A DNA stretch of 45,943 nt from positions 1 through 45,943 of the forward strand of contig PSPR01000013.1 of the NCBI GenBank assembly GCA_004195515.1, given 5' to 3'. The notes below the pieces were generated by a model, which saw nothing but the letters and a program-made list of their open reading frames with translations, did not search any database and was not told the DNA's origin. A program made the translations under genes and the position numbers. Positions 8,375-44,500 of this stretch are shown one piece after another (positions within the stretch are counted from its first letter, which is position 1; the number at the start of each line of letters is the position of its first letter). The stretch comes from Methanobacteriota archaeon. Lineage in GTDB: Archaea > Thermoplasmatota > Poseidoniia > Poseidoniales > Poseidoniaceae.

Positions 8375-11300
8375 ATGTCAAACGAAAATGGCGACGAAAA
8401 AGCAGTGCCTAAAGCAATGCTAGGGTGGCTCATAGCCCCCCTTGCAGTGTTGGTTGCACTAACAGTAAATTATGGTCTAGGTTTCGGCTTAGATCTCAAC
8501 ATGGAAACAATGACCCCGTACGCGGCGCTAGCATTAGCAGCAGCACTCGGAATGGCACCACGTGTCTTACGAGAACAGGGTATCATCGACAACGTCAACA
8601 ATCAAGTACAATCCCTCCTCGTCCTTGTAATATCTCTTGCCGCTAGCGAAGGTATCGCTATGTTCAGCGGATCAAATCTGATAGGATTACTATTCTTCAT
8701 CACTATGTTTGGAGGATATATCCTCGATAACCATGGTCGATTCGAATGGAATACCGTATTGATTTTCAATATGGTTGGATTCATGTCTGCTTTAGCAGCA
8801 GCAGGATATTTCATAGCAAACCAATCCTTTGAGTTCAGTATCGAAGGTCAAACCTATGACCGAACATCTGCATGGCAAGAAGCGATTGGATTCATCTTCT
8901 TCAATGTCTGGACAGTAATCACCGTCCTCGGTATGCTCGCTGCAGTTCTTCTGCGCGGCCTTGTTGGCCCAGAAAGCGAAAAAGGCTGGTTTTCATACAT
9001 ACCATCTTCCGATGGTCTATGGAACCGTGCAACATTGCCATTACAAATCGCTTTGGCGGTTTGGGCAATGTCCCATGTCGCAGTATTGGCTTACTTCAAC
9101 AGTCTTGGCGATTTGGATATCTTAGCGATATGGTCCGAAGAAGCTTATCATGGCTACATTGGATTCTGGCCGGCAGCATTGACTGGTGTAGTTGCACTAA
9201 TCTGTGCTTGGATGGCAGCGGAGCGCTGGTTTACCCGTGCTTTGTTTATCGGTTCAATGTGGGGCTTATACATCATCTCTTCACTATATGAGACCGGGCA
9301 TTGGTCCTCTGAAACCTTCGAGGAATCTTGGGCTGTTTGGTATTGGTTTGGAATTTCATTCCTGCTTTCGGTCATCATTTATTGGTTCGCAACCCACGAA
9401 CGATACGGTGGCTGGGTGAATCGTGAATCTCACGAACCTAGCCAAGCCCGTGTATTCTGGTCCAATCATTGGGCTGGTTTGATGACCGGACTTGCGTTCT
9501 TAGTTGCTCTTGTTATCAGGGTTCAATGGTACTTAGTACCATCAATGAACTCTTATGGTCTCAATGATTTCGATCTAACCGGTGGTTCTGACCCTTGGTA
9601 CATGAAGCGAGTTGTCGATTATATTATCGCTGAACACGCTCACCTAATCTTTGACGCAGACCGAAATTACCCGGTCGGTGGAATCAACCCACGTCCGCCA
9701 TTATTTACCTGGTCTTTGGCCTTGGTTGCAATGTTTATCGCACCAATAATGGGTGTGGCTACAACCGAAGCGGTATGGTGGTCTATGCTCGCTATGCCTG
9801 CGGTCTTCGGTGCTCTAACCGTTTTCCCAATGGCAGGAATCGCAAAGGACAACTTCGGCAAAGGCGCAGGAGTAATCGCAGCATGGCTTATCGTATTCAT
9901 GCCTACCCACGTCCAAAAATCGACTTGGGGTATGGCTGACCACGATGCTTTCGTCTTGCTCTTCTTGACTGCAGCGTTCATGTTCTACCTACGTGCTGTT
10001 AAGGCCGGTGGCGATGACCGCTTGATGCGAAAAACCAATGCAAGCCCAAGTGGAATCTTGACCGCGATTGGAATCGTGATGAAAGAACGCCGTTTGGCTA
10101 GCGCAAATGCGATCGCCGCTGGTGTTTGTTTTGCAATCGTCGCTTTGGGTTGGAAAGGATTCGTCTACGGGCCGGCTATCATCTTCTTAGCATACTTCGT
10201 ACAAGTTGCAATGAATATGTTCCGCCGCAAGGATAGTACTATTCTCACAACCCTTAACCTATTGATGATTGGAACCATCTTCCTGATGGTTCTACCATTC
10301 TATGGCCACCCACAATTGGACCTGATTCTTAATTCGACTGGTCTTCAACCGCTCTTGTTCATCTTCGGATTTACATTAGCTATCGGTTGGATCACAACTG
10401 GATTCCGTGACAAGCCTTGGTTGCTAGTCCTAGGTTCTCTGGTCACAGGCGGAATCTTATTCTTCGTTCTATTGTATGTCCTTCAACAATTGGATATCTC
10501 CAATGCATGGGAAGTTTTGACCACAGGTTCTGGTTATTTCACCAAGAACAAGATTTTTGGAACGATCGCTGAGGCGAGTGCTCCAAGTCGTGGACAACTC
10601 TTTGCTTCGTTCGGACCAATAGTGTTCGTACTTGCAATCGTAATGGGTATCCTTGCGATTTGGGATGGCATAATGAAGAAGCAACAGACCAAACTTATTC
10701 TTGGAATGTGGGTCCTCGTCGCAGCATACATGGCTTGGTCCGCTGGAAGATTCCTCTTCAATGCAGCACCAGCAATGGCTGTCATGAGTTCTTGGGGAAT
10801 CGTCACTCTATGGAGAGCGTCCGGTGCTTCCAAGATGGCTCGCGAGTGGAGGCGAATGGGAATTCGCACTCCCGGTGACAGAATTTCCAACGCTCGAAAA
10901 GCGGTTTGGAAAACCCCACAATTTTCTGCAATCTTCTTGGTTCTTATCATGATTGCATCTCAACATGCAACCTATGGAATCGATGCAGCAATGCCTTCAA
11001 CCGGTCAAACCGAGTCTGAAATGGATGCAACAATCTATAATATCATGCCGGAAATACTCCGCTGGAATGAATTGGGCTTCTCGCTCTTGAACGATGAAGC
11101 ATATGACGAAGAAGGAAACTCTCGTTGGTTCTTAGGCTCTTTCGGGTCCGGTTTCAATGACCAAGGCTGGAATCTGGCTTATGATTGGCTAGCTCATCAA
11201 GACACCGACCAATCATATTCAGACCGCCCTGCGTTCGTATCTTGGTGGGATTACGGTTTCCAAGCTCTTGAGTCCGGAGACCACCCGTCGGTCTCAGATA

Positions 11301-14300
11301 ACTTCCAGTCTGGTATTCCTGCAACTGGAAATATGTTATTGGCTCGTAACCAAGACGATTTGGTAGCAATGTTCGTCTGGAGATTATCCGAAGCAGATCT
11401 GAAGATCAGCGAAATGAACGATGGCGAAAGGATTCACAGTAATTCATTCGAACAAACTCTTGAAAAGCACCTAAGCAGTGTTCAAGTTGCTGAATTCAAC
11501 GAACTTCAGATCGCTTTGGACAAATCAGATGTCACCGACAGAGTATTCAGTGTTACTCAAGCCAATCGTGAAATCGTCTTGGCTGAAGGATATAGTCTCT
11601 CAAATGGAATGGTAGATTCTAATGGCGACCTTTTATTCAAGGTTTACAATAGTGGTATTGTGGTTCCTTGTGAACCGGAAAATGAAAATGATTCGACCTC
11701 TTGTAATGGAGATGCATTCACCTCATTCAGTATTGCGAATTCAACCTTCAACAGCCACATTCGTTCTGCAGGGGATACCGAATTCAATTCTACCCATTAC
11801 ATCGTTGGAGATTATTGGTATACCGCCGACCTAGTCGATGAATTCGATTCGGTCAGTACAAAGATTCACCGAGCAAATGCCGGAATCGCATTGATCACTC
11901 AATTGTTAACAAGTTCATTGAGTTCTGATGAAATTCACGACCTCTATGCCGATTTGATGGACAATAGGGTTTACACCGTCCAAGATTACGATGGCGGTCC
12001 AGGTGAAATGATTACCAGAGACCACGAAATTCGTTACTTTGCAGTCGATAACCGTCTTTACCCTCGTGGTGGCAGATACAACTCCGAATATTCTGGTGGA
12101 AACCCATCCGGAATTTTCGGAGCACCTACCATCCTTTCCGGTCAGGACTTCGCAACTTTCATGGATGAGGTTTACGAGACCAGTCGTGGAGATTTCAGAG
12201 ATGAGATGACCCGCGATGAATTCAATGAAGAAGCACGAAAGGACGTCATTAACCAACAAGCAGGTTCCGATGTAGAACCTTTGAACCTTGACGATGTACG
12301 AATAGACCATACATCTGCCTTCTTTGACACCATGCTCGCAAGAGCATATGTTGGATATGGCGCAGATGACTTAGGATTCAATTCCTTTGAACAACCTGGT
12401 CAGCACTTCCAGCAATCCGGAACTCCCAATTCAATGATGACCAATGCAGTTCCAATGCCTGGTGCAATGATGAATCGCTTCGTTATCGCAAATTGGTATG
12501 ACTCAGAAGATCAATCTAAGAGTATTCCACAAGCTAATACATATGTGAAGATTCTAAAGTACTATCCTGGTTTAGAGATTGAAGGTTCGGTTGCAATGAC
12601 CGATGGCCAAGGTCTACCTAATGTCAGAATTCTAATCGAGAGAGACGCATTCTCCGGTGAGGATTCAACTGACTTGGACCAAGATACTTACTGGATTCCA
12701 ATCGGATATACCGATGCTGATGAGAATGGTGAATGGTCATATACCGTACCAGCTGGCCGAATCCGTGTTTCTGCATTCGCAGGAGTATTCGATGATGTTA
12801 ATGCGAAAGACTCATTCAAACTCGGTGAATATACCGAGGGATTAGGAGATTTAACCATTCCTTATAATGACGACCGCCAACCAAATCTAATCACCGCATT
12901 ATTGGGAAGGGTTGCAAATATGTCTTGGATGGGTGAACAAACCAACAATATTACCGGAGATATGGCTGATAGAGTCAGCAATTTTGAAGGTAACTTCGAC
13001 ATTGAAGTCAAATCGAGTGGAATATCTGGAACCGTTTCATGGTCTGGACATTCCAACTTCGATGGTGAACCATTGGAAAATACCACTTTCATCTTACGTA
13101 ATATTTGGTCTTTAACAGATAACTACACCATCTCCACAACTTCAGGATCTTTTACATCTGACGAATTTAGAATCGTTGGACCAGGAGAAGGAGAGGTACT
13201 CTTTGATGGAGAAGGAACATTCGACACTCAAGGATCGATGGGGCTGGTCAGAGGATTCACAGGAAATTTCACTCGTGAAATCTCTTCGGGCCGTACCTAT
13301 ACATCTGAAGGATCCTGGACCGGAGTTGGTGAATTGGTTGGAACATTGTATGATTATACTGCACCTGATTGTAATCAATCAGAAGCAGAGGATGGGGAGA
13401 TGATGGATGATATGCCAACATTCCAGAATGAGACCGACGTCACCATATTACACGATGCTTGTTTGATGGTTGGAGAGACCGATAAATATCTCTTCATCAG
13501 TCCTATCAATGCTAGCGGTCGAGTAACTGCGATTTCAACGGTGACATTGGTCAAGCAATTGGTCAGTGAAACATTCGAAGGTACCGGTGTTTTCGTCGGT
13601 GAAGGGACTGTTAGTGGAACTGGATTATTCTCTGGTGCTGGAACATTCTCAGGCGAGATGGTTAAGCCCGGTTCATTCTATCAAAGCGGATTGGTCCCTG
13701 GTATTTACAATATGATTGCCCAATTACCAAACGGTAAGGAAGTGCTTTTGCCAGACCCTGTCGAGGTTGAATTGCAACCAAAGACCAATTTGGAAATGAC
13801 AATGCCTGGTTCTATCTTCAATGATACCCTTTACTCTGATACACTAACCGATGGGGAACCTACTCCAATGCCTGGAGTTATTGTCGAAATTCTCGATATG
13901 GAATTAGGCGAGGATTCGGTAATTTCAATCGAAACCGATGAAGGTGGAAACATTTCATACGGTCCTATATCTCGTGGCGATTATATCTGGAGAGTCGATG
14001 CAGATGGTGATGGCTGGTACGAAAGAGAGGTTCCATTCTTTGTGTTTGATGAATCGACCAATGTAACCTTCGAATTTTCAATACCTACAAAGAGAGATGT
14101 AACAATTACACTAGGGCAAGGAGATTCTAGCCTAGATTTGGCAAACCGCACAGTTTACTTCACCAATGTATTATCTTCAGATCTAAACCCAATGGTTGTA
14201 AATGCCACATCGAATGAAACCGGTATAGTATTTGCAGAATTGGACATGGGTGATTGGATAGTATCGGATGAATTTGATGAAGATTATGTCTTATGGGAAG

Positions 14301-17300
14301 AATTAGTGATTCGAGATACCGACCAAAACATTAGCATGGATTATGCGATTAGTGTATGGTTCAATGGTACCGTATATGCTGTTCCAACTGGATTGATGGA
14401 TGCAGAAGATATTAATTCGCCTTCCGATATCCCATCTGAAAGTTTGGAACCTGCTAGTATCGTTACTGTAGAAGCTCGTTCTGGCTCAATTCTCTTGAGT
14501 AATAGAAGCGATTCATCTGGCAATTATTCATTGCGATTACCAGCTGGTAGAACCTTCCATCTAACCGTAGAAAGTTTCTTCAGCAGTGAAACATATACTG
14601 GTGGAATGACCTTTGATGATGCTGAAGCAGTAGAGGATTACACAATATACATCCAAGAAGCAAAACTAGTTCGTGGAAAGGTTTGGCTTAACTCAGCCAC
14701 CGAAAACGCAACCGATTGGGGTGAAGGTGTTCCTGGTTCTGAAGAAACAGAAGTTATTGCAACCTCTGTCGATGGATTGGAATGGCGAACCGAATTGACT
14801 GGTCTCGGCGATTTCTCATTACATCTACAATATGGCAATTGGACTTTTAGCGTTTCAAACGATATGATGAAGGTTGAGCCTGTAATAATCGAGACTGAAA
14901 ATATGAGTGAAGAAATCGCATTAATTGCAATGCCGGACCCAGTATCCTTGACCATTTACATGTTCTTGGACAGTTCAGAAGATGGTGTACGTGAAAACGG
15001 AACCGCAATTTACCCTTCGTTCAATCTGGTCCCAGCCGGTGAATTCGGAACTCAAATTAATATCACTTCTGATGATTACGATCAATTAAACGGCTCTATC
15101 ACTTTGGAAGTAGATGTTGGAGATTATACTTTCTCGATTACTGAAGATGATGCTAGAGATGAAAATGCAAGCGATTACCGATTGCGATATAACTTTGCGC
15201 CAGGATTAGAATTGGGTCTGTCGAATGAAGGAGAACCCATCGAAATCGCCTTTGATCCAATGTACTTGGTAAGTGGTGAAATCGATATGGAAAGTGGGTT
15301 CGATATGGTCAATTCAACCATTTGGCTCACTAGTGTCGATAGTGAAGACTTTGTCTCAATGACTACCGATGAGAATGGAACCTTTGCTGCATATATCGCT
15401 CAAGGCGATTGGTATGTTGAGGTTGCACCTTACGAAGCGGATAGCAATGAAACAGAGATTTTCCGCGGCCTTTTAAGCGTGGATTCAAACTCGACAAACC
15501 GAAGTGACCTTTCGTGGCAAACCCAGACTGCAATGCTAGTCGTATTCCAACTACAAGAAGGATTGACAGAAGTAAACCTCACCACAACTAGAGTTACAGC
15601 AGTTAGCCTTGATGGTCTAGGAAATGTAAGTCTAGGTCCTTCCGATAACGATGGAATGATTTCAGAGGTACTGATGCCAGGTTCTTGGACTATGAGCATT
15701 AATCGCACCGATAATCTAGAGCGATGGGTCCTTGAAGAAGGAACTCATAACTCAGATGATGAAATAATAAACGGCTCTTGGTCTCCAAGTGTCGTTTCAG
15801 TTGACAAATGGGTGATGGTCGGAGGAAAGGTCTTCTGGGACCTAAACGCTGACGAAATTCCAAGTATAGGCGAAGGAATCCTGAATGCTACCGTTCTAAT
15901 CAACGGCGGTACAATCGATGAAAACTTGACCACCGATGAAGAAGGTGTATGGAGTCTATTCGTACCTATCCGTACCAATTATACCGTTGATGCAAACAAA
16001 CTCGGATTTGGGAATCAATCCTACATGATGGATAACGAATCTGTCTACATGGTAAATGATACTCACGAAAGCCGAGATATTATGCTCAGCGCCGGTTTGG
16101 TTTCAGTAACTGGTAATGTAACCGACATCGCAGACCTAGGTCGGCTTGAGGGTGCAACTATAACCTTGATTCCTGTTGTAGGAATCGAGCGTGACTCAAT
16201 CACAATGTCTACATCTTACGATAATGAAACCCTTTCTTGGAGCGCAGATATCGAACCGGGTCAATGGATTGTTATGGTCATCGGAACCGATGCTGATGAA
16301 AACGGCGGTGGAGTTGCAGTTGGCTTACTCAACGCATCTGTACAAGATGGTGCGAGCATTGACCTGGATATGGCAATGGGTGGTCGAGTCTCGATTACAA
16401 CTGCTTGGACTACTTTTGATGGTGTTGCTAAACACGCTGGAGATGCTGAAGATGCAAGAATTTCAATAGATCTTGGTGATGAGATGGAATGGTATGCTGA
16501 TGTTGATGACGCTGGAAAATTGGATTTAGTCCTACCTTCTGGTACTGTTGATCTGAGTAGCGAATTCAGTACTGTTCAACATGACATGGAATTAAATATG
16601 GAATATACCGCTGGAATTCAAGTAAATAACGAAGTTGGTTTGGATTCCCGTGAGATGGCGTTTGACCGTCGTGAAAACTCAGATTTGACAATTGAGATTG
16701 TTTCGATCAATGGAGATAGTGCAATTTTCGACGAATCAGATTTAACAGAGATGAGTGCAATAAGCGCTGATGATAATAGTTATACCACAATTGAGATGAC
16801 ACTTAATTTGCAATATGACGGTACTGAAATCGAAGATACTTTCACAGTAGTTGGGTCAATAACAGTTGCACAAGATTCTGCTGATTGGCAGGTTGTTTTC
16901 AAGAATTCAACTGGCGAATGGGTCCAATCAACCATGATTACAATGGGTGTTGGTGATGATAATGCTTCGGATAATCATATATTATCTACCTCTGTAGATG
17001 TTAGAATAATAATGCCATTGCAAAACGAAAGCCGTTCATACGATGATGGTCATGCTGTAAACATGAAATTCTCGACCGAATACGGTGAATCAGAATTAAG
17101 CGTAAGAGTGAACATTCCACAGGTACATTCGATATCGATGACTGCCACCGATTCCAATATTGGTATTGCAGATGGTTCGACCGCTGTCGTCGGAGTAGCA
17201 TTGACCAATAATGGAAATGGTGACGACACGATGACTATCACCCCAAGTTTGAGTGATGATTGTTCGACCGATGGATGGGCAGTAACTCCAATAACTGAAA

Positions 17301-17902
17301 ATAGAACAGTTGGACCTGATGTGACCCTAACACAGTCCTTCACAGTGAAAGCTCCTAGCAATGGCAGTATCACAACATGTTCGGTTTCGTTCTCAGTTAG
17401 TTCTGAAGGAACTCACGATACCTTAACCGGTGCGACAGAAGTTGTGATATCGGTTGCAAGTCTATCCTTCGATACCAATGGTTTCAGACCACTAGAGGCA
17501 GATGCAGCAGCTAATGAAGCAGGTACTATCAGAATTGCTGTGAAGAATGATGGATTCTTAACCGCAAGCGATGTAATCGTAACTCTGGTCGGAACAGCTG
17601 ATACCGAATTTGAGCAGCAGCAGGTCACTATTACAGTTCCTGCACAAGGTTCGGCCTATGCTGAGTTCTCATACGATGAATTCAATACCGGAAAGCAACG
17701 CTTCGAGGTACGAATGGAATCGATTGGGACACCGACCGATAGTACAGATGATGATCTTCAGGAATACTTTGACATCAGATTCTCTAGCATGTCCGAAGGC
17801 GAAGAGTCATCATATGTTCTACTGATTGTGGTCTTATTGGGTGCAGCAGTCCTATTCGGCGGCTATAAGGTCGCTCGAAAGGGTTCGAGCAGCCGGTTCT
17901 GA
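8375..17902 (+). CDS. aglB: Giant AglB/STT3-type oligosaccharyltransferase with extra N-terminal TM module and about 2200-aa C-terminal ectodomain plus terminal TM
   Basis: GGSDPWYMKRV (Asp codon 9590), WGMADHDAF (9938), NYPVGGINPRPPLF, WWDYG at 11243-11257. Downstream carboxypeptidase-regulatory-like and NEW3/CARDB-like modules; C-terminal TM YVLLIVVLLGAAVLFGGYKVARK. Confidence 0.92.
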   Translation: MSNENGDEKAVPKAMLGWLIAPLAVLVALTVNYGLGFGLDLNMETMTPYAALALAAALGMAPRVLREQGIIDNVNNQVQSLLVLVISLAASEGIAMFSGSNLIGLLFFITMFGGYILDNHGRFEWNTVLIFNMVGFMSALAAAGYFIANQSFEFSIEGQTYDRTSAWQEAIGFIFFNVWTVITVLGMLAAVLLRGLVGPESEKGWFSYIPSSDGLWNRATLPLQIALAVWAMSHVAVLAYFNSLGDLDILAIWSEEAYHGYIGFWPAALTGVVALICAWMAAERWFTRALFIGSMWGLYIISSLYETGHWSSETFEESWAVWYWFGISFLLSVIIYWFATHERYGGWVNRESHEPSQARVFWSNHWAGLMTGLAFLVALVIRVQWYLVPSMNSYGLNDFDLTGGSDPWYMKRVVDYIIAEHAHLIFDADRNYPVGGINPRPPLFTWSLALVAMFIAPIMGVATTEAVWWSMLAMPAVFGALTVFPMAGIAKDNFGKGAGVIAAWLIVFMPTHVQKSTWGMADHDAFVLLFLTAAFMFYLRAVKAGGDDRLMRKTNASPSGILTAIGIVMKERRLASANAIAAGVCFAIVALGWKGFVYGPAIIFLAYFVQVAMNMFRRKDSTILTTLNLLMIGTIFLMVLPFYGHPQLDLILNSTGLQPLLFIFGFTLAIGWITTGFRDKPWLLVLGSLVTGGILFFVLLYVLQQLDISNAWEVLTTGSGYFTKNKIFGTIAEASAPSRGQLFASFGPIVFVLAIVMGILAIWDGIMKKQQTKLILGMWVLVAAYMAWSAGRFLFNAAPAMAVMSSWGIVTLWRASGASKMAREWRRMGIRTPGDRISNARKAVWKTPQFSAIFLVLIMIASQHATYGIDAAMPSTGQTESEMDATIYNIMPEILRWNELGFSLLNDEAYDEEGNSRWFLGSFGSGFNDQGWNLAYDWLAHQDTDQSYSDRPAFVSWWDYGFQALESGDHPSVSDNFQSGIPATGNMLLARNQDDLVAMFVWRLSEADLKISEMNDGERIHSNSFEQTLEKHLSSVQVAEFNELQIALDKSDVTDRVFSVTQANREIVLAEGYSLSNGMVDSNGDLLFKVYNSGIVVPCEPENENDSTSCNGDAFTSFSIANSTFNSHIRSAGDTEFNSTHYIVGDYWYTADLVDEFDSVSTKIHRANAGIALITQLLTSSLSSDEIHDLYADLMDNRVYTVQDYDGGPGEMITRDHEIRYFAVDNRLYPRGGRYNSEYSGGNPSGIFGAPTILSGQDFATFMDEVYETSRGDFRDEMTRDEFNEEARKDVINQQAGSDVEPLNLDDVRIDHTSAFFDTMLARAYVGYGADDLGFNSFEQPGQHFQQSGTPNSMMTNAVPMPGAMMNRFVIANWYDSEDQSKSIPQANTYVKILKYYPGLEIEGSVAMTDGQGLPNVRILIERDAFSGEDSTDLDQDTYWIPIGYTDADENGEWSYTVPAGRIRVSAFAGVFDDVNAKDSFKLGEYTEGLGDLTIPYNDDRQPNLITALLGRVANMSWMGEQTNNITGDMADRVSNFEGNFDIEVKSSGISGTVSWSGHSNFDGEPLENTTFILRNIWSLTDNYTISTTSGSFTSDEFRIVGPGEGEVLFDGEGTFDTQGSMGLVRGFTGNFTREISSGRTYTSEGSWTGVGELVGTLYDYTAPDCNQSEAEDGEMMDDMPTFQNETDVTILHDACLMVGETDKYLFISPINASGRVTAISTVTLVKQLVSETFEGTGVFVGEGTVSGTGLFSGAGTFSGEMVKPGSFYQSGLVPGIYNMIAQLPNGKEVLLPDPVEVELQPKTNLEMTMPGSIFNDTLYSDTLTDGEPTPMPGVIVEILDMELGEDSVISIETDEGGNISYGPISRGDYIWRVDADGDGWYEREVPFFVFDESTNVTFEFSIPTKRDVTITLGQGDSSLDLANRTVYFTNVLSSDLNPMVVNATSNETGIVFAELDMGDWIVSDEFDEDYVLWEELVIRDTDQNISMDYAISVWFNGTVYAVPTGLMDAEDINSPSDIPSESLEPASIVTVEARSGSILLSNRSDSSGNYSLRLPAGRTFHLTVESFFSSETYTGGMTFDDAEAVEDYTIYIQEAKLVRGKVWLNSATENATDWGEGVPGSEETEVIATSVDGLEWRTELTGLGDFSLHLQYGNWTFSVSNDMMKVEPVIIETENMSEEIALIAMPDPVSLTIYMFLDSSEDGVRENGTAIYPSFNLVPAGEFGTQINITSDDYDQLNGSITLEVDVGDYTFSITEDDARDENASDYRLRYNFAPGLELGLSNEGEPIEIAFDPMYLVSGEIDMESGFDMVNSTIWLTSVDSEDFVSMTTDENGTFAAYIAQGDWYVEVAPYEADSNETEIFRGLLSVDSNSTNRSDLSWQTQTAMLVVFQLQEGLTEVNLTTTRVTAVSLDGLGNVSLGPSDNDGMISEVLMPGSWTMSINRTDNLERWVLEEGTHNSDDEIINGSWSPSVVSVDKWVMVGGKVFWDLNADEIPSIGEGILNATVLINGGTIDENLTTDEEGVWSLFVPIRTNYTVDANKLGFGNQSYMMDNESVYMVNDTHESRDIMLSAGLVSVTGNVTDIADLGRLEGATITLIPVVGIERDSITMSTSYDNETLSWSADIEPGQWIVMVIGTDADENGGGVAVGLLNASVQDGASIDLDMAMGGRVSITTAWTTFDGVAKHAGDAEDARISIDLGDEMEWYADVDDAGKLDLVLPSGTVDLSSEFSTVQHDMELNMEYTAGIQVNNEVGLDSREMAFDRRENSDLTIEIVSINGDSAIFDESDLTEMSAISADDNSYTTIEMTLNLQYDGTEIEDTFTVVGSITVAQDSADWQVVFKNSTGEWVQSTMITMGVGDDNASDNHILSTSVDVRIIMPLQNESRSYDDGHAVNMKFSTEYGESELSVRVNIPQVHSISMTATDSNIGIADGSTAVVGVALTNNGNGDDTMTITPSLSDDCSTDGWAVTPITENRTVGPDVTLTQSFTVKAPSNGSITTCSVSFSVSSEGTHDTLTGATEVVISVASLSFDTNGFRPLEADAAANEAGTIRIAVKNDGFLTASDVIVTLVGTADTEFEQQQVTITVPAQGSAYAEFSYDEFNTGKQRFEVRMESIGTPTDSTDDDLQEYFDIRFSSMSEGEESSYVLLIVVLLGAAVLFGGYKVARKGSSSRF

Positions 17903-26168: not shown

Positions 26169-26639
26169 TTAGAAACTCGGTCTATTTGTAGCAATACTGG
26201 TAATTCCATTTTGATGAATTACCCATATTTCACTCAGGCCTGAGAGAGAAATGGTCCCAGAATAATTACCAGAACCGGTCGCAGAAATACTGACCTCTCG
26301 ATTTAACTCATATTCGTCATGGTTCAAAGTTAAGCCATGTTCGCTGAGGGTTAATTTAAACAAGGTTTCATCCGCCTCGGTATATCTCCATTTTACAGCT
26401 TCAGCATATTGTATGGAGTCTCCTTGGCGACTTGCCAAATCCGCTCGCTCAACCGCTGATGCGAGGTCAGCAAGATTTGTATCGATGGCATTTTGGTTCC
26501 AACGTTCTCTGGTTGCTGTTTCAATTCCAAAGGACCAGACACTAAACATCGAGAGTAAAATTACTCCGAGCATGAAAGTAAAAATATAACCTAATTCAGT
26601 AGATGCAGCAGCTTCATCTCTCTTGATTTTAGAAATCAT
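26169..26639 (-). CDS. Type IV pilin-like small protein (third gene of pilin operon)
   Basis: MISKIKRDEAAASTELGYIFTFMLGVILLSMFSVWSFGIET: charged leader followed by hydrophobic helix; start overlaps upstream stop (ATGA, 26636-26639). Confidence 0.72.
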   Translation of the reverse strand: MISKIKRDEAAASTELGYIFTFMLGVILLSMFSVWSFGIETATRERWNQNAIDTNLADLASAVERADLASRQGDSIQYAEAVKWRYTEADETLFKLTLSEHGLTLNHDEYELNREVSISATGSGNYSGTISLSGLSEIWVIHQNGITSIATNRPSF

Positions 26640-28732
26640 GAATTAGCCTCCGAAATATCAACATCGATACTGCTGATTTGCAAACTGAATTGAATCGGCT
26701 CCCCACCGGTATGCCAAATTGCTTCAGATGGTCCATGGGATGGAATCGGAACCCAGCCCACATAATCGGTCAACAAATCCAGCCGCCCTGGATAAACTAT
26801 CCAATCTTCTGATTGATCTAATGCTCTCGAAGAGTATTGGGCGATCGCATCACCGTAAGGACCTTGCCAGCCTCTTCGCAAGTCAAATGCTTTGGAAGAT
26901 GCTAAACTATATCTCATCTCCAATTTCAATTCCAACTCCATATTTCCTTGGCCGCTTGTAGAGGTAAATGAGGGGTGCATCGAGGGAATCGTCACCGAGA
27001 ATCTCGGACCTGGACCACCTTTATCGCTAGGTGGCAAAATAACCTCGGCCTTAATTTCAGGATGGTTGGTTACAACAGCACCACCGGTCCAAGCGATCTC
27101 CAAACCGCTGATCGAGGTTTCGAATTCATATGTTAGCCTCGAAAGATGGAAAGCCCAAGCTGTGGCAATGGTTCCATGGGTTGAATCATCCACTTGGCCA
27201 ATTAATTCAATCGAAAAACTCGAAGGATGAGTGCCTTCTTTCCAAGCTCTGAACAATTCATTTTGCATTCTTCCTGCCATATTTTCCCATGGGATTTCAG
27301 TTTGGATCCAACCTGAGGCAGTCATGTCGATTCCAATACAGCGCTGTGCTCCTTCGTCCTCAAGTCGTAATAATCCATCATTGCCTTGAGATTGGAGGAC
27401 CTCGATTGCATCACCAGAAGTAAGTGTTACCCGCCCTTCAGCCGTAATATTCCACTCGGCCTCATAACCGACTAAATTAACTGAATTGGTTTTTGAAATA
27501 TTTGTTAGAAATGTCTGGCCGCTTAATCGGCCGGTATTTCCAGCCGCCAAATACGTCATTCCAGAATCGCTCTCACTCCATTCGAGCAGAAAATTTTCAC
27601 TACCCTTTACTATTGCAGAATTATCTATTTCACCATCAGGCCAAGCGATTGAAGTTGTTGAGTTTGCTCCTAATGTGAGGCCACCATTTCTCCAAGAAAT
27701 TATCGTTGCCTCTTGACCCGGGTTGGTAAATATCACTGTACCATCGCTCGCTGGAGCTAAAAATTCCTTGGAGAGCATTGATGAATCTTGTCCTATCAAC
27801 ATGGTTGAACCCGAGGTCGTAGTTTGAACGATCAAGTTAGAATTAGCATTAGTCCTAAATTCAACCAATTTGTCTTCACTCAAATTGAATTGTTTTGTCC
27901 ATGAATTTGCAAGATGCAATTTATCACTCTTTATCGACACATCTGAGTTTGTTATGCCGTCTATTGTCCATTCGATCAAAAGATTGGAGGTTGAGAGAAA
28001 TTCGACATCCGTCAAACCACTAGGCAGCGGTAATGCCCAATGTCGTCCTTGACCGGTTGAAGGGTCTAACAATGATGGTTGAGCTAACATGATTCCACCT
28101 TCACCCGAGATCATCATTCCTGTTAAGTCATGACTTGAGGAGAAGTTTTTATCTCCGTCCAAACGGAGCACTTCCCCGATGTTCACCAAATATTCCACAC
28201 CTTCTTGTACGATATTTACTGGACCTAATGGTATGGTCAATCCATGTTTTGGCGTTACTAAAATTGAATCGATCCCTCCAGGCGGTGAAAAAATGAATGG
28301 CCTACCCGGGCCTAGTCTCAAGTCCTCATAGCAAAGGGCCTCAATTTTGCTTTCGGAATGGCGGATGTCGATGGTCCGATCCATATCTAAGCCATCTCTG
28401 ATTCTGAACGAGTTATCTTCATGCCAAGAAGCGGAATACCACATTCCACCTCTGGTCCGGTCCCATCCAAGGTCGCCGTCCAATGGAATCATTTCGACCT
28501 TGGTCATATCACCAGGCATTCCAGATTCGGCCAAGATATTAGCCTCATGTGCGAGAACGGTCATCTGGGCTTCCATATCGTGGCGTTTGACCGCCCCTTC
28601 TAATTCTTGGATAACCGGTGTCATCGACATTAGCATCAAACTGATAATTGAGATGACTCCGCCGAATAGTAAAACGGTTGCAACCGCTGCACTCACAGCA
28701 TCTTCATCTCGACTGATGCCTTGCTTTATCAA
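26636..28732 (-). CDS. Large (698 aa) type IV pilin-like surface protein
   Basis: MIKQGISRDEDAVSAAVATVLLFGGVISIISLMLMSM: archaeal prepilin-like leader and H-domain; ATGA overlap with upstream gene (28729-28732). Confidence 0.75.
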   Translation of the reverse strand: MIKQGISRDEDAVSAAVATVLLFGGVISIISLMLMSMTPVIQELEGAVKRHDMEAQMTVLAHEANILAESGMPGDMTKVEMIPLDGDLGWDRTRGGMWYSASWHEDNSFRIRDGLDMDRTIDIRHSESKIEALCYEDLRLGPGRPFIFSPPGGIDSILVTPKHGLTIPLGPVNIVQEGVEYLVNIGEVLRLDGDKNFSSSHDLTGMMISGEGGIMLAQPSLLDPSTGQGRHWALPLPSGLTDVEFLSTSNLLIEWTIDGITNSDVSIKSDKLHLANSWTKQFNLSEDKLVEFRTNANSNLIVQTTTSGSTMLIGQDSSMLSKEFLAPASDGTVIFTNPGQEATIISWRNGGLTLGANSTTSIAWPDGEIDNSAIVKGSENFLLEWSESDSGMTYLAAGNTGRLSGQTFLTNISKTNSVNLVGYEAEWNITAEGRVTLTSGDAIEVLQSQGNDGLLRLEDEGAQRCIGIDMTASGWIQTEIPWENMAGRMQNELFRAWKEGTHPSSFSIELIGQVDDSTHGTIATAWAFHLSRLTYEFETSISGLEIAWTGGAVVTNHPEIKAEVILPPSDKGGPGPRFSVTIPSMHPSFTSTSGQGNMELELKLEMRYSLASSKAFDLRRGWQGPYGDAIAQYSSRALDQSEDWIVYPGRLDLLTDYVGWVPIPSHGPSEAIWHTGGEPIQFSLQISSIDVDISEANS

Positions 28733-29772
28733 GTCCTCACCTCAACTCTATGAAGGTCGATCTCCAAATCGATTTTACTCTCTCCACCATCGATGGTAAA
28801 GCCATCACTACCGCTTGCCCGTTGCCATGGACTTAGGCCTCGATATTCGGAATTGGTCCCAGCTGCGAGATTTAGATTATAATCGGTTAACCAGCCTTCG
28901 GTTAACTGGGGTGAAATCGCATCGTCTAAGGTTGAATCAAATGTGAATCTGAAGTGCCAAGCATCACCTGAGAATAATGTGATTGGGCCATTTGACATCA
29001 GATCCAATTCCACAACCCGTCCACTAGGTGCAGCCCCAATAATTCGCACGTCTCTTAATCGTAGGGAGGCTCTCATGGTTCCATCGATCAATTCATCAAT
29101 GTCGATATCAGGTTTCTCTATTACGTCCCAATGAATTGAATCTGTTCGGTCATATCTTGCATCATTGATCACCGCTATCTCGTTTTGGCCACCTTGATAA
29201 TCTGTGACGATTCGCAATCCTGAAATCACAATTTTGGCATGGGTATGAAGTTTGAGACCATTCGCATCGAAAATGCTGACGATGTAAAGGTTGTAAACAT
29301 TCAAGTCGTGCTCGATAATGACCTTGTTATGGGACGGGGTAAAATTTGTTATCTGTGAGCCAGTTGGCGTCCAAATCGAAACCGATGCTGCACTTTCATT
29401 ATATGCTAAGATCGAAAAAGCGCTTCCATTCAGATATTCTACCTCGATTCGTTCATCGGAGGTTAAATCGGCTGATACGGTCCAGATTTCAACATTGATC
29501 AAAGTGCTCAAACTGCTCGTTGCTGCTGGGATTGTAGTTTTAATACCCGTCCCTTCGCTTGCAGAACCAACCAGTTCGAGTCTACCATCAAGCCTTTCAG
29601 CCATACCATTGGCGTTGGACCAACTGCTGTTGTCTTGAAATTCTGCAACAAATGGAGTGAGGAACATGAATGTGCCACCCATCATGGAAACAACCATCGC
29701 CAAAAGCATTACTACGCCCAAGACTTCGCTAACAGCTTGGTCTTGACGTGACAGCGTTCCGGCTTCCATCAA
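28729..29772 (-). CDS. Type IV pilin-like protein (first gene of pilin operon)
   Basis: MMEAGTLSRQDQAVSEVLGVVMLLAMVVSMMGGTFMFL: RQDQAVSEVLG resembles archaeal pilin N-terminal domain. Confidence 0.78.
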   Translation of the reverse strand: MMEAGTLSRQDQAVSEVLGVVMLLAMVVSMMGGTFMFLTPFVAEFQDNSSWSNANGMAERLDGRLELVGSASEGTGIKTTIPAATSSLSTLINVEIWTVSADLTSDERIEVEYLNGSAFSILAYNESAASVSIWTPTGSQITNFTPSHNKVIIEHDLNVYNLYIVSIFDANGLKLHTHAKIVISGLRIVTDYQGGQNEIAVINDARYDRTDSIHWDVIEKPDIDIDELIDGTMRASLRLRDVRIIGAAPSGRVVELDLMSNGPITLFSGDAWHFRFTFDSTLDDAISPQLTEGWLTDYNLNLAAGTNSEYRGLSPWQRASGSDGFTIDGGESKIDLEIDLHRVEVRT

Positions 29773-30824: not shown

Positions 30825-30836
30825 AAGGTGGTCACA

Positions 30837-33800
30837 ATGCGACGGTCTCAATCAACTCTATTGGTAACTATACTCGTGGTCTCAGGACTGTTCATGATGT
30901 CGCAGATTCCAGCAATATCAAATGTCGGAACAATTCATCCTAATGCGACTAATCAAGAACGCCCACCAACCACCGATTCCGATGGCGATGATATTCCAGA
31001 TGTCCACGAGAATCTTTTCTCCGAATGGGTAAATTGGACGGCTAATGACGGTCGTGCGGTTTTGATTAAAGGGCTGGACCGAGACGATGCATCGGATGCA
31101 AATTCTGATTTGGACCACGATGGTCTAAATGCTACCGAGGAATATTGTTGGCCCTATCCAGCTAATTGTACAGATACCGGATTCACTAGAGGTTTGACCG
31201 GTGTAATCGATCCTTTCACCGGAGACCGTTCCTATCTCGACCCTCGTATTGCCGATACCGATGGTGATGGGATGCCAGATGGCTTCGAGGTGGCAATGTG
31301 TGAACGATTGGATTCATTCGATATTACAACTATGAGTTTCCAATGCTCCTTATTTGATCCTCTAAATGCATCCGATGCTGAATCTGACCCGGATGAGGAT
31401 GGCTTTGATGTCGACAGAAATGGATTTTTATCACCTGGTGAAATGCTAACCTCTCCCGAAGAATACTCATATGGTGCACCAAGTAATTGGACCACAGAAT
31501 TGGATGGATTACGATGTAATCATCCCGATCCTGAAGGGGCAGTAATAGAGGATTGGCCCTTTATCTCATTAGATCCTGCTTTGACCAGATTACTGAATTT
31601 GCTCGATGCTTGTGCTTTTAACGGCACAGAAAATGTTGTCGACGAAGAGATTTGGCTTGGAACCGATCCGCTTGAAGAGGATAGTGACCGGTATAATTGG
31701 GATGGATTCAAGCATCGAAGAATTTATCCTTCTAGCGGGGATGGCATATCGGATGGTTGGGAAATACACTTTGGATTAGACCCACTGAATCGCTCGAACG
31801 CATTGAGTGATTTAGATTCTGATGGCTGGGATGTCAACCGAGATGGATTCCAATCAAAGGATGCTGCAAGGACAAATACCGCGCTAGCGGTTGGAGAAGA
31901 ACTCTCAACACTAGAGGAATATTTGGTCCATTTGGACGATGGTAATACTGTGAAATCAGGTATGCGGTCGGTCGGTCTAGCGGCTAATTCTGGGACTTAT
32001 ACTGAATATATGCTAACAGCCGAATCATCGACTGAAAATATTACAATATTGCACCATGATATTAGAGAGATTATCTCAGCAGATGGCTTGATGTGGGTCG
32101 GCACAAAACTAGGGCTTACAGTCATAGATTTCGAAGCTGACACTTCCAAAGATTTTCCACTACCTCAAGGCCATGACCTCAACGATCTCATCGTTCTTGA
32201 TAGCACAGTTGTAATGCTTACCGAAGGTGGGATTTGGATCGCCCAACACGATGGCGGAGCAGTAGCCCCTATCGGCGAATGGGAGTATATCCCAGGAACT
32301 TTCAATGCAGGTGATACTCTAATCAGAGACGGTGATAATACCCATATCATTGCCTTGGGAGCTTATGGCTTTGGCAAGGTCATTGAATTGGACTCAGATG
32401 GAGTTCTAGGTTCGATTTGGGAGATTGGAGCCGGAATCTCAAATGTGATGCTAGAGGGAAACGCTAGTGCAACTCAAGTTGAACACGTTGATGTCAGCGG
32501 TGGTCCACTCACTCTCTATGTTGGTACAGACGTCGGTTTATTTCGAGTCGAAACCGCTTCTGCAAGGGATACTGCTACACCAACGTGGGTGTTTTACAAT
32601 TCTCCTGAGCCAACTACTGTAGCAAATAATTACGCAGAACTTCGAGCCCTTGGTTCACAAACTACCGGCAATCCTGCATGGGTAAATACACTGGTCGCGC
32701 AAGGTCCGACCGGTGGTGCGGACCAAGTGGTTTGGGTTGGAACTCCTTCAGGATTACATCGAATCGATTTGGTTGCTGGTCATATGGACCACAGCGGATT
32801 ATTAGAGCATCCAGGTTTGGATGGTAAGACAATATCCGATGCTAATTATATTCAATCGATCACTCCTACCGATTCCTCATTATTAATTGGAAGTAAATGG
32901 GGTCTTTGGGCAATAGCCGGAGGGCATGCTGCGGTTTATGGAGCCACCTCTCAAGAGTGGATTCCAGGGGCGGTCGCATCGAGCGCAGTTCATGATGTAA
33001 ATGGGGTAAATACCGTTTTCGTTGGAATCGACCCCGGGAAATATTCAAATTTACAACTTATGGACCCGATGGTCAATGATTCCGATTCGGATGGCATGAT
33101 CGATGGTTGGGAAGTTCAATACGGATTAGACCCAACCGATCCGTGGGATGCATTACTCGATGCAGATGGTGATGGTGTTAATTTAAACGATGATCCAATC
33201 AAAGAAAGACTCTGGCGCAATCTCGATGAATTCAGATATACTGCTCGAACTGCAGATGGCTTCAATGCAACAGATCCTCGAGTTGTCGATACCGATATGG
33301 ACGGTGTTAATGACGGTGCAGAATATTTCGGTTTATTTCATGAATTAACCCCTCTTTGGTGCCATTATACCAACTCATATGACTTTGAACACATCTGTGG
33401 TGATGAAGCAGGACAAGCAGCGAATGCTACATATTTATCCTCGTTGGGAATCGATGAAGGTACAGATCCTACCAACTCAGATTCTGATGGAGATGGAATG
33501 CCAGATGGATGGGAAATCAAGCACCGTCGTTGGATTGGTTCAACTTTTACCGGCTCAAATAATTGGAGTTTGGACCCCAGTAGGGCCGATGATGCCCTTT
33601 GGGATGCAGACGGTGACGGATTATCGAACCTTTGTGAGTACCAATGGTCTCAGATTAGGCTTGGAGCGATTGCGGGTGATATTTTGGAGAGCCATTTGGT
33701 CACACCTGAATCCGCTCAAACTTGGGCTGAATCAGATCCAAATAATGTCGATTCAGATGGTGATGGCTTGCCCGACGGATGGGAAGCAAGGAATTCCTGT

Positions 33801-36524
33801 GTTTGGACTGTATCTAGAGTTGGAATTAATCCGTTAAATGGCAGCGATGCGTTTGAGAATCCTGATGGTGATGGTTTCGATATTAATATGAATGGAGTTA
33901 TCGAAGATAATGAAGCATTCGTAAACTGGCTTGAATACAATATTCGGGATAACTTATTTTCGGGCAACATGAGTCTTGATGGTGAAGAGATACCCGAAGG
34001 ATTCAGCACAGATCTCTTCCGAAACATTTCGGATTGGGCAATACCTGAAGATACATTTGGCGATGGCGATGCTACCGGTGACCCAACCGATGCCGATAGC
34101 GATGGTGATGGCATGCCAGATGGTTGGGAAATTTGGTTTGCTCGTTGGCATTTATTAGATTCTGAATGGACTCTGGACCCATTAAATTCTGAAGACCGTT
34201 GGGAAGATTCTGACGACGATGGAATGTCAAATTGGGAAGAATACAATAGTATTGATCCAAGTCGTTCCGAGACCAATGCGAACCGTTCGAGCCCGCAATG
34301 GTTCGTCACCAGTATTGGTGCAGGATTCACTTTACAACAATGGGCTGGAATTACCAATGCCGAATCTTTTGGCAGCTTTGCCTCACAAGAAATTATCAAC
34401 ATCTCGGGCTATACTACAGATCCAACAAATCCGGATACAGATGGTGATGGATTCCTCGATGGGCTTGAATTATTGTTCACCGCTTGGAATGATACAGCCC
34501 AGACTTGGACACTTAATCCATTGGTGCCGGGAGATGGTTTATTCGATGCAGATAACGATGCTCTAACCGACGCTCAAGAATTCTCATTGGCTACAATGAA
34601 TCCTGTTAATGGTATAACTCACCCTCTAGATGCACCACTCATGCATTTGGACGGCGATATTAACGATCCAACCCAAAAAGCTCAACGAGTTTACTCAATC
34701 CTATTGGATAAATCCCTAAGAGGGCAGCGCCATTTAGAAGCATTCCAAACCTGGCAATCAACAGGGATTCCTAGTAATTTCTTAGCTACATTGATGGGAA
34801 TAACCGACCCAACTATCGCCGATACAGATGATGATGGGATGTTAGACGGTTATGAATATTGGTTTACAACTTGGGATTTAGAAGATAATCGTTGGTCGAT
34901 GAATCCTCTAATCGATTCAGATCAATGGCTGGATAGCGATGGTGATTCTTATGATTGTAATCAAGACGGAAATCTATCATTAGATGAACAATTCACCAAT
35001 AAACGCGAATATGAATCTCGAGTTTACGGGAAATATTCACAAAGATTTACCACTAATGCTGGCCTGATTGGTTTCGGTGATGATGCTATTTCAGCATATG
35101 AAGAAGATGGAAAAAGCAATGGTGAAGCACGCCTTGCTCTATTCAACGATTTTTATGGGAAAAACTCGGAATCGACCAGTCGTGTCGATATGATAAATAC
35201 TGCCGATCCAGATACATTTAATCGAACCTTATTGGGTATTTCAGATCCGACGAGCACCGATTCAGATTCAGATGGAATTGAAGATGGATGGGAATATTGC
35301 TACGCTGTTTACGGTTTACCGGATGCGACAACGGTTAATCACTGGGCGAGTAATCCAGTAAATCCATTCGACGTAAATTATGATCCTGATAGCGATGGCT
35401 GGTATGGTAGAACCGCATTTGATACCCCCGCTAGCCAAGGCAGTTGGACCGACCGGTCTTTCACAGCAGATGGTGGCATTATTCAGAATGGAATCGGTGA
35501 TCTACCATTTACCAATATGATGGAATGGTTGAATGGTACTATGCCGGATACGAATGACTCGGACAATGATTCAATATCTTATATTACCAATATTAATTCT
35601 GGGTCGGTCGTTTCTCATTATCTAGATTGGAATTTATCAGATGGTCGTGAGGTGTTCAAATATGGTACAAATCCGATGGATAATGATACCGATGGCGATA
35701 TGTTGCCTGATTGGTACGAATATTCCAAGGGTTGGAACGAATCGAATGATAATTACAGTTCCTTCCTCAATGTGGAAGTTCAATGGGTCGACCCTAGTAC
35801 AGGTGTAGCCTGTACCGCTGATACGACCTCTTGTAGACCGTTATCTCAGAATAGTGGAACCCTTTCAAGGCCGACTTTAGGCTTGACTTGGGCTCAGTTT
35901 GACCCTAGGGATTCGTCAGATGCGAACTATGATCCAGATATGGATGGTAATTGGGATTGTAGTGGTGCGACCTGCGAATATACTGCGTACACTAATTTCA
36001 TGGAATTTTTCATGCTCGCCGACCCAAATCTCGATTCTCCTAATGCCGTGCGATTATCTGGTGAAACCTGGCAGGGTTCACCGATAACTGAGTGGTGGCA
36101 ATTCAGAGCTTTCACTCTTGGGTTGGGAGAAGTTTCCGAAGATAGCACCAATTATCTTCAAATGAATAAGAGAAATATTGATGATGAAATTTACGTATTG
36201 ATAATCGACGATAATGATGGCGATTTCTTAGTTATTGATACTGGAGATGATGTCACATTATGTTCAGGAGATATTACAGATGATTGGGAGTTATATTATA
36301 CTGGCAACACTAACCGTGCACCGACAATTTCTGTCGGTGAACACGAATTAGGCTGGTACTTGCTTGACCTTGACGACGATCATATCGCCGAAGGAAGTGA
36401 CCCATTAAACTGGGATACCGATGGCGATTGGGTTGTTGATTGGTTTGAGGTTATCGACGATGAAGAAGACGGAATGCGTGGAGATTCATCGCCGATTCGT
36501 TACGATTCTCGTCAGACGGCTTAA
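30837..36524 (+). CDS. About 1895-aa secreted protein with about 13 TSP3-like Ca-binding repeats (DxDGDGMPDGWE) and a beta-propeller-like segment
   Basis: ORF 30828..36524, likely ATG30837 (MRRSQSTLLVTILVVSGLFMMSQIPAIS). Repeats DTDGDGMPDGFE, DSDGDGMPDGWE (x2), DSDGDGLPDGWE, DSDSDGMIDGWE, DTDDDGMLDGYE and others; WVGTKLGLTVID / YVGTDVGLFRVET / WVGTPSGLHRID propeller-like blades. No C-terminal TM. Confidence 0.85.
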   Translation: MRRSQSTLLVTILVVSGLFMMSQIPAISNVGTIHPNATNQERPPTTDSDGDDIPDVHENLFSEWVNWTANDGRAVLIKGLDRDDASDANSDLDHDGLNATEEYCWPYPANCTDTGFTRGLTGVIDPFTGDRSYLDPRIADTDGDGMPDGFEVAMCERLDSFDITTMSFQCSLFDPLNASDAESDPDEDGFDVDRNGFLSPGEMLTSPEEYSYGAPSNWTTELDGLRCNHPDPEGAVIEDWPFISLDPALTRLLNLLDACAFNGTENVVDEEIWLGTDPLEEDSDRYNWDGFKHRRIYPSSGDGISDGWEIHFGLDPLNRSNALSDLDSDGWDVNRDGFQSKDAARTNTALAVGEELSTLEEYLVHLDDGNTVKSGMRSVGLAANSGTYTEYMLTAESSTENITILHHDIREIISADGLMWVGTKLGLTVIDFEADTSKDFPLPQGHDLNDLIVLDSTVVMLTEGGIWIAQHDGGAVAPIGEWEYIPGTFNAGDTLIRDGDNTHIIALGAYGFGKVIELDSDGVLGSIWEIGAGISNVMLEGNASATQVEHVDVSGGPLTLYVGTDVGLFRVETASARDTATPTWVFYNSPEPTTVANNYAELRALGSQTTGNPAWVNTLVAQGPTGGADQVVWVGTPSGLHRIDLVAGHMDHSGLLEHPGLDGKTISDANYIQSITPTDSSLLIGSKWGLWAIAGGHAAVYGATSQEWIPGAVASSAVHDVNGVNTVFVGIDPGKYSNLQLMDPMVNDSDSDGMIDGWEVQYGLDPTDPWDALLDADGDGVNLNDDPIKERLWRNLDEFRYTARTADGFNATDPRVVDTDMDGVNDGAEYFGLFHELTPLWCHYTNSYDFEHICGDEAGQAANATYLSSLGIDEGTDPTNSDSDGDGMPDGWEIKHRRWIGSTFTGSNNWSLDPSRADDALWDADGDGLSNLCEYQWSQIRLGAIAGDILESHLVTPESAQTWAESDPNNVDSDGDGLPDGWEARNSCVWTVSRVGINPLNGSDAFENPDGDGFDINMNGVIEDNEAFVNWLEYNIRDNLFSGNMSLDGEEIPEGFSTDLFRNISDWAIPEDTFGDGDATGDPTDADSDGDGMPDGWEIWFARWHLLDSEWTLDPLNSEDRWEDSDDDGMSNWEEYNSIDPSRSETNANRSSPQWFVTSIGAGFTLQQWAGITNAESFGSFASQEIINISGYTTDPTNPDTDGDGFLDGLELLFTAWNDTAQTWTLNPLVPGDGLFDADNDALTDAQEFSLATMNPVNGITHPLDAPLMHLDGDINDPTQKAQRVYSILLDKSLRGQRHLEAFQTWQSTGIPSNFLATLMGITDPTIADTDDDGMLDGYEYWFTTWDLEDNRWSMNPLIDSDQWLDSDGDSYDCNQDGNLSLDEQFTNKREYESRVYGKYSQRFTTNAGLIGFGDDAISAYEEDGKSNGEARLALFNDFYGKNSESTSRVDMINTADPDTFNRTLLGISDPTSTDSDSDGIEDGWEYCYAVYGLPDATTVNHWASNPVNPFDVNYDPDSDGWYGRTAFDTPASQGSWTDRSFTADGGIIQNGIGDLPFTNMMEWLNGTMPDTNDSDNDSISYITNINSGSVVSHYLDWNLSDGREVFKYGTNPMDNDTDGDMLPDWYEYSKGWNESNDNYSSFLNVEVQWVDPSTGVACTADTTSCRPLSQNSGTLSRPTLGLTWAQFDPRDSSDANYDPDMDGNWDCSGATCEYTAYTNFMEFFMLADPNLDSPNAVRLSGETWQGSPITEWWQFRAFTLGLGEVSEDSTNYLQMNKRNIDDEIYVLIIDDNDGDFLVIDTGDDVTLCSGDITDDWELYYTGNTNRAPTISVGEHELGWYLLDLDDDHIAEGSDPLNWDTDGDWVVDWFEVIDDEEDGMRGDSSPIRYDSRQTA

Positions 36525-36599
36525 GCCATTTTAGTTGACGCTGAACCGGATGATTCAAGGCTGAGGTCGGTGCTGGTCTAAACAACAGGGTTGGTGTAC

Positions 36600-43488: not shown

Positions 43489-43567
43489 GTATTAGGGGGC
43501 TAAAATGGGATTACTTGTCAACATGACGATGAAAATGCTCAAAGTTAGACCGCTTTTAGCCCAGTTG

Positions 43568-44500
43568 ATGCCTAAGCCAATTCTCGTATCCGGCTTTGAG
43601 CCATTTGGAAACCATAAGACGAATATTTCCAAAAAGGTTGCTTTAGAAGTGAACGGATTATCGGTTCGCGGTCACACAATAGAATCAAAAATATTGAGCG
43701 TTGATTTGGCTGGAGCAAAATATGTATCTCAACAGCTCAGTGAACAGGACTTTGCAGCGATTATTCATTTAGGTCTGGCAGAGAATGCCAAGGTACCTCG
43801 GATTGAGTTGAAAGCAAAAGATATTCTTGATTTCAGAATTCCTGATAATTCGGGTCGCCAAATAAAAGATTCGATAATTTCCGGGGAAGGAGATTTGTTT
43901 TCGAAAATTGAAATTGATGATTGGGATATTGCCACGATGATCAGCCAACCGATAATAAGCGAAGATGCGGGAGAATTCCTTTGCAACGAAGTTCTTTATC
44001 GGACTCTGCACGCTCTCAATGATAACACTCCTTGTTTTTTCTTACATTTGCCCCCTATTTGTGAAGATCCGGTCGGTTTGGTTTTACAATGTTTAGACCG
44101 GATGCTACGTCCACCTTGTTTAGATGTGGGTGCAGGTGCGATTATTAGCGCTGGAAAATTCTTGGCAGCTAGGCGTGCTCCCAAAGAAAAACATGCAGGT
44201 TGGTGGGAATTTCCTGGAGGGAAATTTGAGCCTGGTGAAGACGCGGTTGATTGTTTGAGACGTGAGATCAGAGAGGAGTTGGAACTTGAGGTTGAGGTTG
44301 GAGAAGAGGTTGGTATTTGGATTTATGATCATGGTGATGTGGTCGTCAGGCTTCATGTTCGGCGCTGTACCATAATTTCCGGTGAGATGAAATTGAATAA
44401 TCACGACAAGGTCCAATGGTGTACAAAAGACGACGAAGTGGACTGGTTAGGTCCAGACCAAGAAATAGCATCTGCAATAATCGGCCATATTTCCAATTGA
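43568..44500 (+). CDS. Fusion: pyroglutamyl-peptidase I-like (C15) domain plus C-terminal Nudix/MutT-like hydrolase
   Basis: ORF 43505..44500; MPKPILVSGFEPFGNHKTNIS, FRIPDNSG, EDAGEFLCNEVLYRTL (Cys codon 43982), FFLHLPP. Then GAGAIISAGKFLAARRAPKEKHAGWWEFPGGKFEPGEDAVDCLRREIREELELEV Nudix box. ATG43568 fits the C15 N-terminus best. Confidence 0.85.
   Translation: MPKPILVSGFEPFGNHKTNISKKVALEVNGLSVRGHTIESKILSVDLAGAKYVSQQLSEQDFAAIIHLGLAENAKVPRIELKAKDILDFRIPDNSGRQIKDSIISGEGDLFSKIEIDDWDIATMISQPIISEDAGEFLCNEVLYRTLHALNDNTPCFFLHLPPICEDPVGLVLQCLDRMLRPPCLDVGAGAIISAGKFLAARRAPKEKHAGWWEFPGGKFEPGEDAVDCLRREIREELELEVEVGEEVGIWIYDHGDVVVRLHVRRCTIISGEMKLNNHDKVQWCTKDDEVDWLGPDQEIASAIIGHISN

Follow-up and report, generated by a model that had tools for sequence, protein, structure and literature searches.

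A giant AglB of Poseidoniales with intact oligosaccharyltransferase motifs and a long, sequon-rich beta-sandwich ectodomain predicted to be anchored at both ends

INTRODUCTION

The common picture of an archaeal oligosaccharyltransferase (OST) is a compact enzyme with a single subunit, no longer than roughly 1,000 residues. AglB-L of Archaeoglobus fulgidus (PDB 3WAJ, 5GMY and 7E9S) has ~870 aa with one small peripheral domain, and the model for the archaeosortase-associated AglB, TIGR04154 (archaeo_STT3), has a length of 831. For MGII archaea, passages of a metatranscriptome paper place an oligosaccharyltransferase among the highly transcribed genes and do not describe its architecture (PMC9723583).

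Here we analyse a giant AglB encoded in a stretch of 45,943 nt (hereafter the window) from an archaeon of the order Poseidoniales, a group of uncultured marine archaea. AglB itself is known; in the open-access literature we found no description of a long AglB. For a sequon-rich ectodomain of >1,500 aa, apparently anchored twice and conserved across the phylum, and for the order-specific N-terminal module reported below, open-access papers likewise yielded no description.

RESULTS

One open reading frame with an intact AglB core

Positions 8375–17902 of the forward strand form one open reading frame (ORF) with an ATG start, 3,175 aa and no internal stop. Its parts are as follows.

8375..17902, forward strand: giant AglB, with same-length orthologues in two families of the order
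8375..9424, forward strand: N-terminal membrane module of ~350 aa and ~10 helices (AF2, charges), with no Pfam or PDB relative
9425..10984, forward strand: STT3/AglB GT-C membrane core (PF02516; TIGR04154, 181 bits; PDB profile 3waj; top Foldseek matches all OST)
9581..9601, forward strand: GGSDPWY (residue 403), first acidic motif, D406 invariant
9935..9952, forward strand: ADHDAF, second acidic motif, with D522, H523 and D524 invariant
10559..10576, forward strand: GTIAEA, TIXE-type external-loop motif, E733 invariant
11243..11257, forward strand: WWDYG (residue 957), motif of the acceptor Ser/Thr pocket, invariant
11072..12751, forward strand: C-terminal globular AglB domain to about residue 1459, shared with ~1,290-aa AglBs (hhalign)
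12752..13042, forward strand: first CarboxypepD_reg-like sandwich, in a P1-like position (sequence; hhalign)
13043..13654, forward strand: Gly-rich beta domain with long strands (insertions within 1557–1760; AF2 strands of up to 26 residues)
13682..16564, forward strand: about ten beta-sandwich repeats of ~95 aa (self profile alignment; AF2)
12872..16324, forward strand: sequon-dense stretch, residues ~1500–2650 (sequon counts)
16565..17794, forward strand: NEW3-, CARDB- and choice-of-anchor-T-like sandwiches near the membrane (profile matches)
17816..17872, forward strand: C-terminal transmembrane (TM) helix, the one terminal hydrophobic helix (residues 3148–3166), followed by the basic end KVARKGSSSRF

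PF02516 (STT3) matched residues 404–672 over its curated cut-off (E=2e-20, 74 bits vs 24.5), and TIGR04154 matched residues 373–992 at 181.6 bits, which is below the 450-bit curated cut-off for that subfamily. AglB of A. fulgidus ranked first in the PDB profile search (3waj) and again in Foldseek searches with the AF2 model of the core, a model of moderate confidence with poor loops (pLDDT 69.8); all 17 PDB matches at E<=0.001 were OSTs, the best being 7e9s (E=1.9e-9). GGSDPWY, WGMADHDAF (residue 518) and WWDYG all lie where the earlier note on this DNA had placed them, and D406, D522, H523, D524, E733 and W957–G961 are invariant among 50 orthologues. The giant AglB is also the sole STT3 match in its own 81-contig draft genome. 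Its product would be the single AglB oligosaccharyltransferase of the cell, with a predicted OST activity.

The AglB core spans residues 351–1459. In hhalign comparisons, AglBs of ~1,290 aa aligned to 369–1459, and the alignment of ~900-aa AglBs was limited to 404–993. The ectodomain of ~2,200 aa counted earlier from WWDYG onwards has accordingly to be shortened: the long beta-sandwich tail is real, but the ~500 aa between 957 and 1459 are also found in ordinary Thermoplasmatota AglBs of ~1,290 aa, and the extra part amounts, on this alignment, to ~1,700 aa.

Other ORFs of the window were annotated in passing. A nickel superoxide dismutase lies at 896–1360 on the reverse strand (PF09055, E=5e-43), and two adjacent reverse-strand ORFs at 26636–29772, of 698 and 347 aa, have weak N-terminal DUF7289 matches. 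Two giant predicted surface proteins are adjacent at 30828–36524 (1,898 aa, TSP3 match) and 36591–41939 (1,782 aa, no Pfam match). The ORF at 43505–44500 appears to be a fusion, its first half matching pyroglutamyl peptidase (C15) and its second half NUDIX.

An N-terminal membrane module confined to the order

The first ~350 residues had been missing from the earlier description. In the AF2 model they form a block of about ten helices with pLDDT mostly 65–89, and the loop charges (9 K/R inside vs 1 outside) fit an N-in/C-in bundle. No relative was found in Pfam or PDB profile searches. A copy of the STT3 core was rejected as its origin because profile comparison gave no match, and kinship to the N-terminal extensions of three other families (f13, f20 and f26) was rejected on the same ground. 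The module is confined to AglB of Poseidoniales, where it occurs at one place per matched genome, assembly fragments aside; none was found outside the order in a 194-genome sample of the phylum.

A tail of beta-sandwich modules

From about residue 1460 to 3140 the protein consists of beta-sandwich modules only, as far as tested, and the AF2 model of residues 1440–2639 is almost purely beta, with a mean pLDDT of 82.5. The modules and final TM helix named in the earlier note were borne out: CarboxypepD_reg (PF13620) matched with E=4e-15 and 56.5 bits, NEW3 and CARDB matched in 12 and 9 of 27 homologues, respectively (Pfam), a choice-of-anchor-T-like match covers residues 2825–3018, and helix 3148–3166 closes the chain. 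The offsets found by self-alignment (195, 287, 380, 473, 568 and 660) follow a period of ~95 aa and hence indicate about ten repeats over residues 1770–2730.

The alignment with AglBs of ~1,400 aa reaches residue 1964. Conservation of the proximal tail (1551–1800) is nearly equal to that of much of the core. The Gly-rich domain (1557–1760) is well conserved within the order and mostly missing or much reduced in long AglBs outside Poseidoniales. The Foldseek neighbours of the tail are generic extracellular rods, including TIE protein, SpyCEP, the alpha-2-macroglobulin family, pilins and the S-layer protein SlaB, the last being one fold match amid the others.

Sequons accumulate in the tail

Between residues 1560 and 3140 we counted 46 N-X-S/T sequons vs 16.0 expected by shuffling (z 8.5), and 19 instances of the reversed motif; the catalytic and membrane parts have no sequon excess. 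Summed over 51 Poseidoniales tails, there are 2,238 sequons for 903 expected (reversed motif, 956), and 37 long tails of other families hold 1,324 for 568 expected. Sequons also exceed expectation in the smaller tails of short AglBs (135 vs 41). Compared with control motifs, N-X-S/T reached 2.49-fold vs 1.04 for DxS/T, 1.10 for QxS/T, 0.70 for N[ST] and 0.68 for Nxx[ST], and NP[ST] was found 29 times for 32 expected (0.91). Moreover, the tails prefer NxT over NxS (NxT:NxS 1.78 vs T:S 1.12).

In a 672-kb sample of its own genome, AglB ranked first of 446 ORFs by sequon excess. A control against all neighbouring ORFs was dropped because the cytoplasmic proteins mixed into it overstated specificity, and the secreted ORFs of the same genome were used instead. 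Taken together, those of at least 500 aa show a mild enrichment (528 vs 370 sequons); thus, the trend is real, and AglB is its extreme case and not unique. From residue 1500 on, at least 80% of 47 orthologues share a sequon at 13 positions, and at three positions all of them do; the remaining sequons mostly shift position among orthologues, with density persisting. Such sequons are demonstrably glycosylated in the related, S-layer-less Thermoplasmatales (PMC12448462), and we infer that the tail is N-glycosylated in the cell.

The gene is kept in one frame across Poseidoniales

With a core query of 652 aa, the gene was recovered from 93 of 99 genomes belonging to the same genus, family and order, and all 22 genera were represented. 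Complete open frames mostly measure about 3,120–3,320 aa, and the length is conserved over 22 genera from two families. In a GTDB genome scan, 51 of 55 closed ORFs from named Poseidoniales records (Candidatus Poseidoniales or Poseidoniaceae, also Poseidonia sp. and Ca. Poseidonia alphae) had 3,145–3,321 aa. Two records not labelled as MAGs, isolates AH-273-F07 (L227) and AH-287-P07 (L242), which are taken to be single-cell genomes, also encode the giant AglB. L242 is among the aligned orthologues, and L227 aligns over residues 1–3175 in one frame, its called ORF being shorter (2,954 aa).

Copies split in mid-gene occur in L044, L235 and L285, and in L220 from another family. In each of them the tail resumes in another frame no more than a few hundred bases away, which indicates frameshifts and not two genes. 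In L044 (G036), a one-contig genome, the frameshift, either real or a sequencing error, falls near residue 1529. Relatives do not have OST and tail split into separate genes, an arrangement that would have spoken against a single giant AglB, and a chimera or mis-assembly was rejected. The single-gene AglB of the earlier note, with its OST core, long beta-sandwich ectodomain and final TM helix, is therefore upheld. A stand-alone gene for most of the tail was not detected in genomes with a short AglB, a weak negative given that the profile does not pick up a known fused tail (G179) either. As a separate observation, a Poseidoniales-type AglB is carried by L291, an assembly with the title ‘Deltaproteobacteria bacterium isolate AH-558-G13’ that has probably been mislabelled or contaminated.

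Long AglBs span the phylum

In a survey of 293 sampled Thermoplasmatota genomes with follow-up, AglBs of 2,080–2,740 aa occurred in about 20 families outside Poseidoniales. They have tails of ~1,500–1,920 aa after WWDYG, and their complete ORFs end in a C-terminal TM helix with a basic end. AglBs of Poseidoniales are the longest in the survey; their class-mates of family f3, presumably Marine Group III, have 2,300–2,365 aa, and other families have 900–1,430 aa and no terminal TM helix. A typical AglB length of 800–1000 aa, as previously assumed, fails in this phylum, where ~2,100–2,700 aa is common, and the presumed rarity of the long form found no support.

In profile alignments with most groups of long AglBs, the Poseidoniales protein is collinear from about residue 350 on, over 1,980–2,280 columns with 21–24% identity. 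In a quick ML tree built from core sequences, all long forms fall together, the single short row inside being the frameshifted L220. The tail was likely gained in this long clade, as read from a tree that has one long outgroup.

Four long proteins that resemble AglB and end in a C-terminal TM helix have no WWDYG at the expected place, namely L205, L206 and L207 (family f17) and L214 (family f37), the last with WNGYG instead. In several of these genomes, the WWDYG-less protein is the single STT3 match. Judged by this motif, they are possibly diverged or inactive OSTs.

DISCUSSION

The evidence for the anatomy of the giant AglB is strong. As to its role, we lean, with slightly more belief than doubt, towards a tail that forms a glycan-clad scaffold in cis round the OST active site, as a twice-anchored and self-glycosylated arch. 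AglB would transfer lipid-linked glycans to Asn-X-Ser/Thr at the outer membrane face, and would have grown by adding beta-sandwich modules. Because the STT3 C-terminal domain is outside, the tail should be outside too and the terminal helix should lead back to the cytosol; hence the rod would be tethered at both ends and would have to arch. The sandwich chain would leave the catalytic domain, pass over the outer membrane face and return to the C-terminal anchor. It may then be an N-glycosylation substrate of its own or a neighbouring AglB, and a permanent scaffold doing in cis the job that in other organisms falls to accessory OST subunits or surface glycoproteins made as separate proteins. 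The excess of sequons and the predicted anchoring at two ends strengthen the surface scaffold suggested in the earlier note, a role that is conjectural.

Alternatively, the tail may be chiefly a surface coat or adhesin fused to AglB, in which S-layer-less cells carry glycocalyx rods and the enzyme mainly glycosylates its own rod. The sequon excess, the highest of the ORFs sampled, would suit such a coat, as would the surface rods (pilins, TIE protein and SlaB) among the fold matches of the tail and the lack of a paracrystalline S-layer in Thermoplasmatales (PMC12448462). We nevertheless consider it unlikely, since a single copy per genome and anchors at both ends fit an arch more readily than a projecting adhesin, and other large secreted proteins are present.

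We think it similarly improbable that the arch handles clients, gripping the Sec translocon or secreted chains before they fold, in the manner of ribophorin or NOMO as luminal subunits of the eukaryotic OST or translocon, so that sequons are reached before folding. The conservation of the proximal tail, close to that of much of the core, speaks for it, together with weak sequence matches to NOMO sandwiches (9c7v_B, E=2e-4; PF22902 in 15 of 27 homologues). However, these matches seem to reflect the generic CarboxypepD/prealbumin fold, NOMO is absent from the 50 best fold matches of the tail, and the tail sequons would be left unexplained. Homology to NOMO is retained as a faint lead, and the earlier idea of a tail holding acceptor substrates near the active site is not supported.

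More speculatively, AglB of this phylum could combine the roles of glycosylating enzyme and chief glycosylated surface structure. As a self-glycosylating arch tethered at both ends, it would stand in for an S-layer or for accessory subunits of the OST, having grown stepwise from ~1,200 to >3,100 residues; we are doubtful of this extended version. That two adjacent genes were wrongly joined by assembly or gene calling is hardly credible, for although the window comes from an 81-contig draft, the same length and order recur in >90 independent genomes and collinear homologues exist in other families.

Abundant archaea of the ocean surface and much of their phylum have an OST with a far larger, apparently twice-anchored ectodomain that seems to rank among the enzyme's own chief substrates. 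With such an enzyme, OST accessory domains acting in cis, autoglycosylation and the surface cover of S-layer-less archaea become open to experiment. Long AglBs are encoded in complete single-contig genomes of other families; hence, cultured hosts are probably available.

Compared with known systems, the giant AglB has the GT-C core, acidic motifs, TIXE-type loop motif and WWDYG in common with AglB-L of A. fulgidus, which lacks the N-terminal module, the repeat tail and the C-terminal anchor. TIGR04154 likewise has no such tail, and its match is to residues 373–992 of the giant protein. NOMO, a component of the BOS complex of the ER multipass translocon, also has prealbumin-like sandwiches arrayed outside the cytoplasm and a TM helix at its C-terminus, but it is a separate protein with no catalytic part, and the similarity seems to be that of the generic fold. 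The other long AglBs of Thermoplasmatota have the collinear core and tail, the basic-ended C-terminal TM helix and the sequon-rich tail as well, but they are shorter, have no counterpart of the Poseidoniales N-terminal module and are missing the bulk of the 1557–1760 domain.
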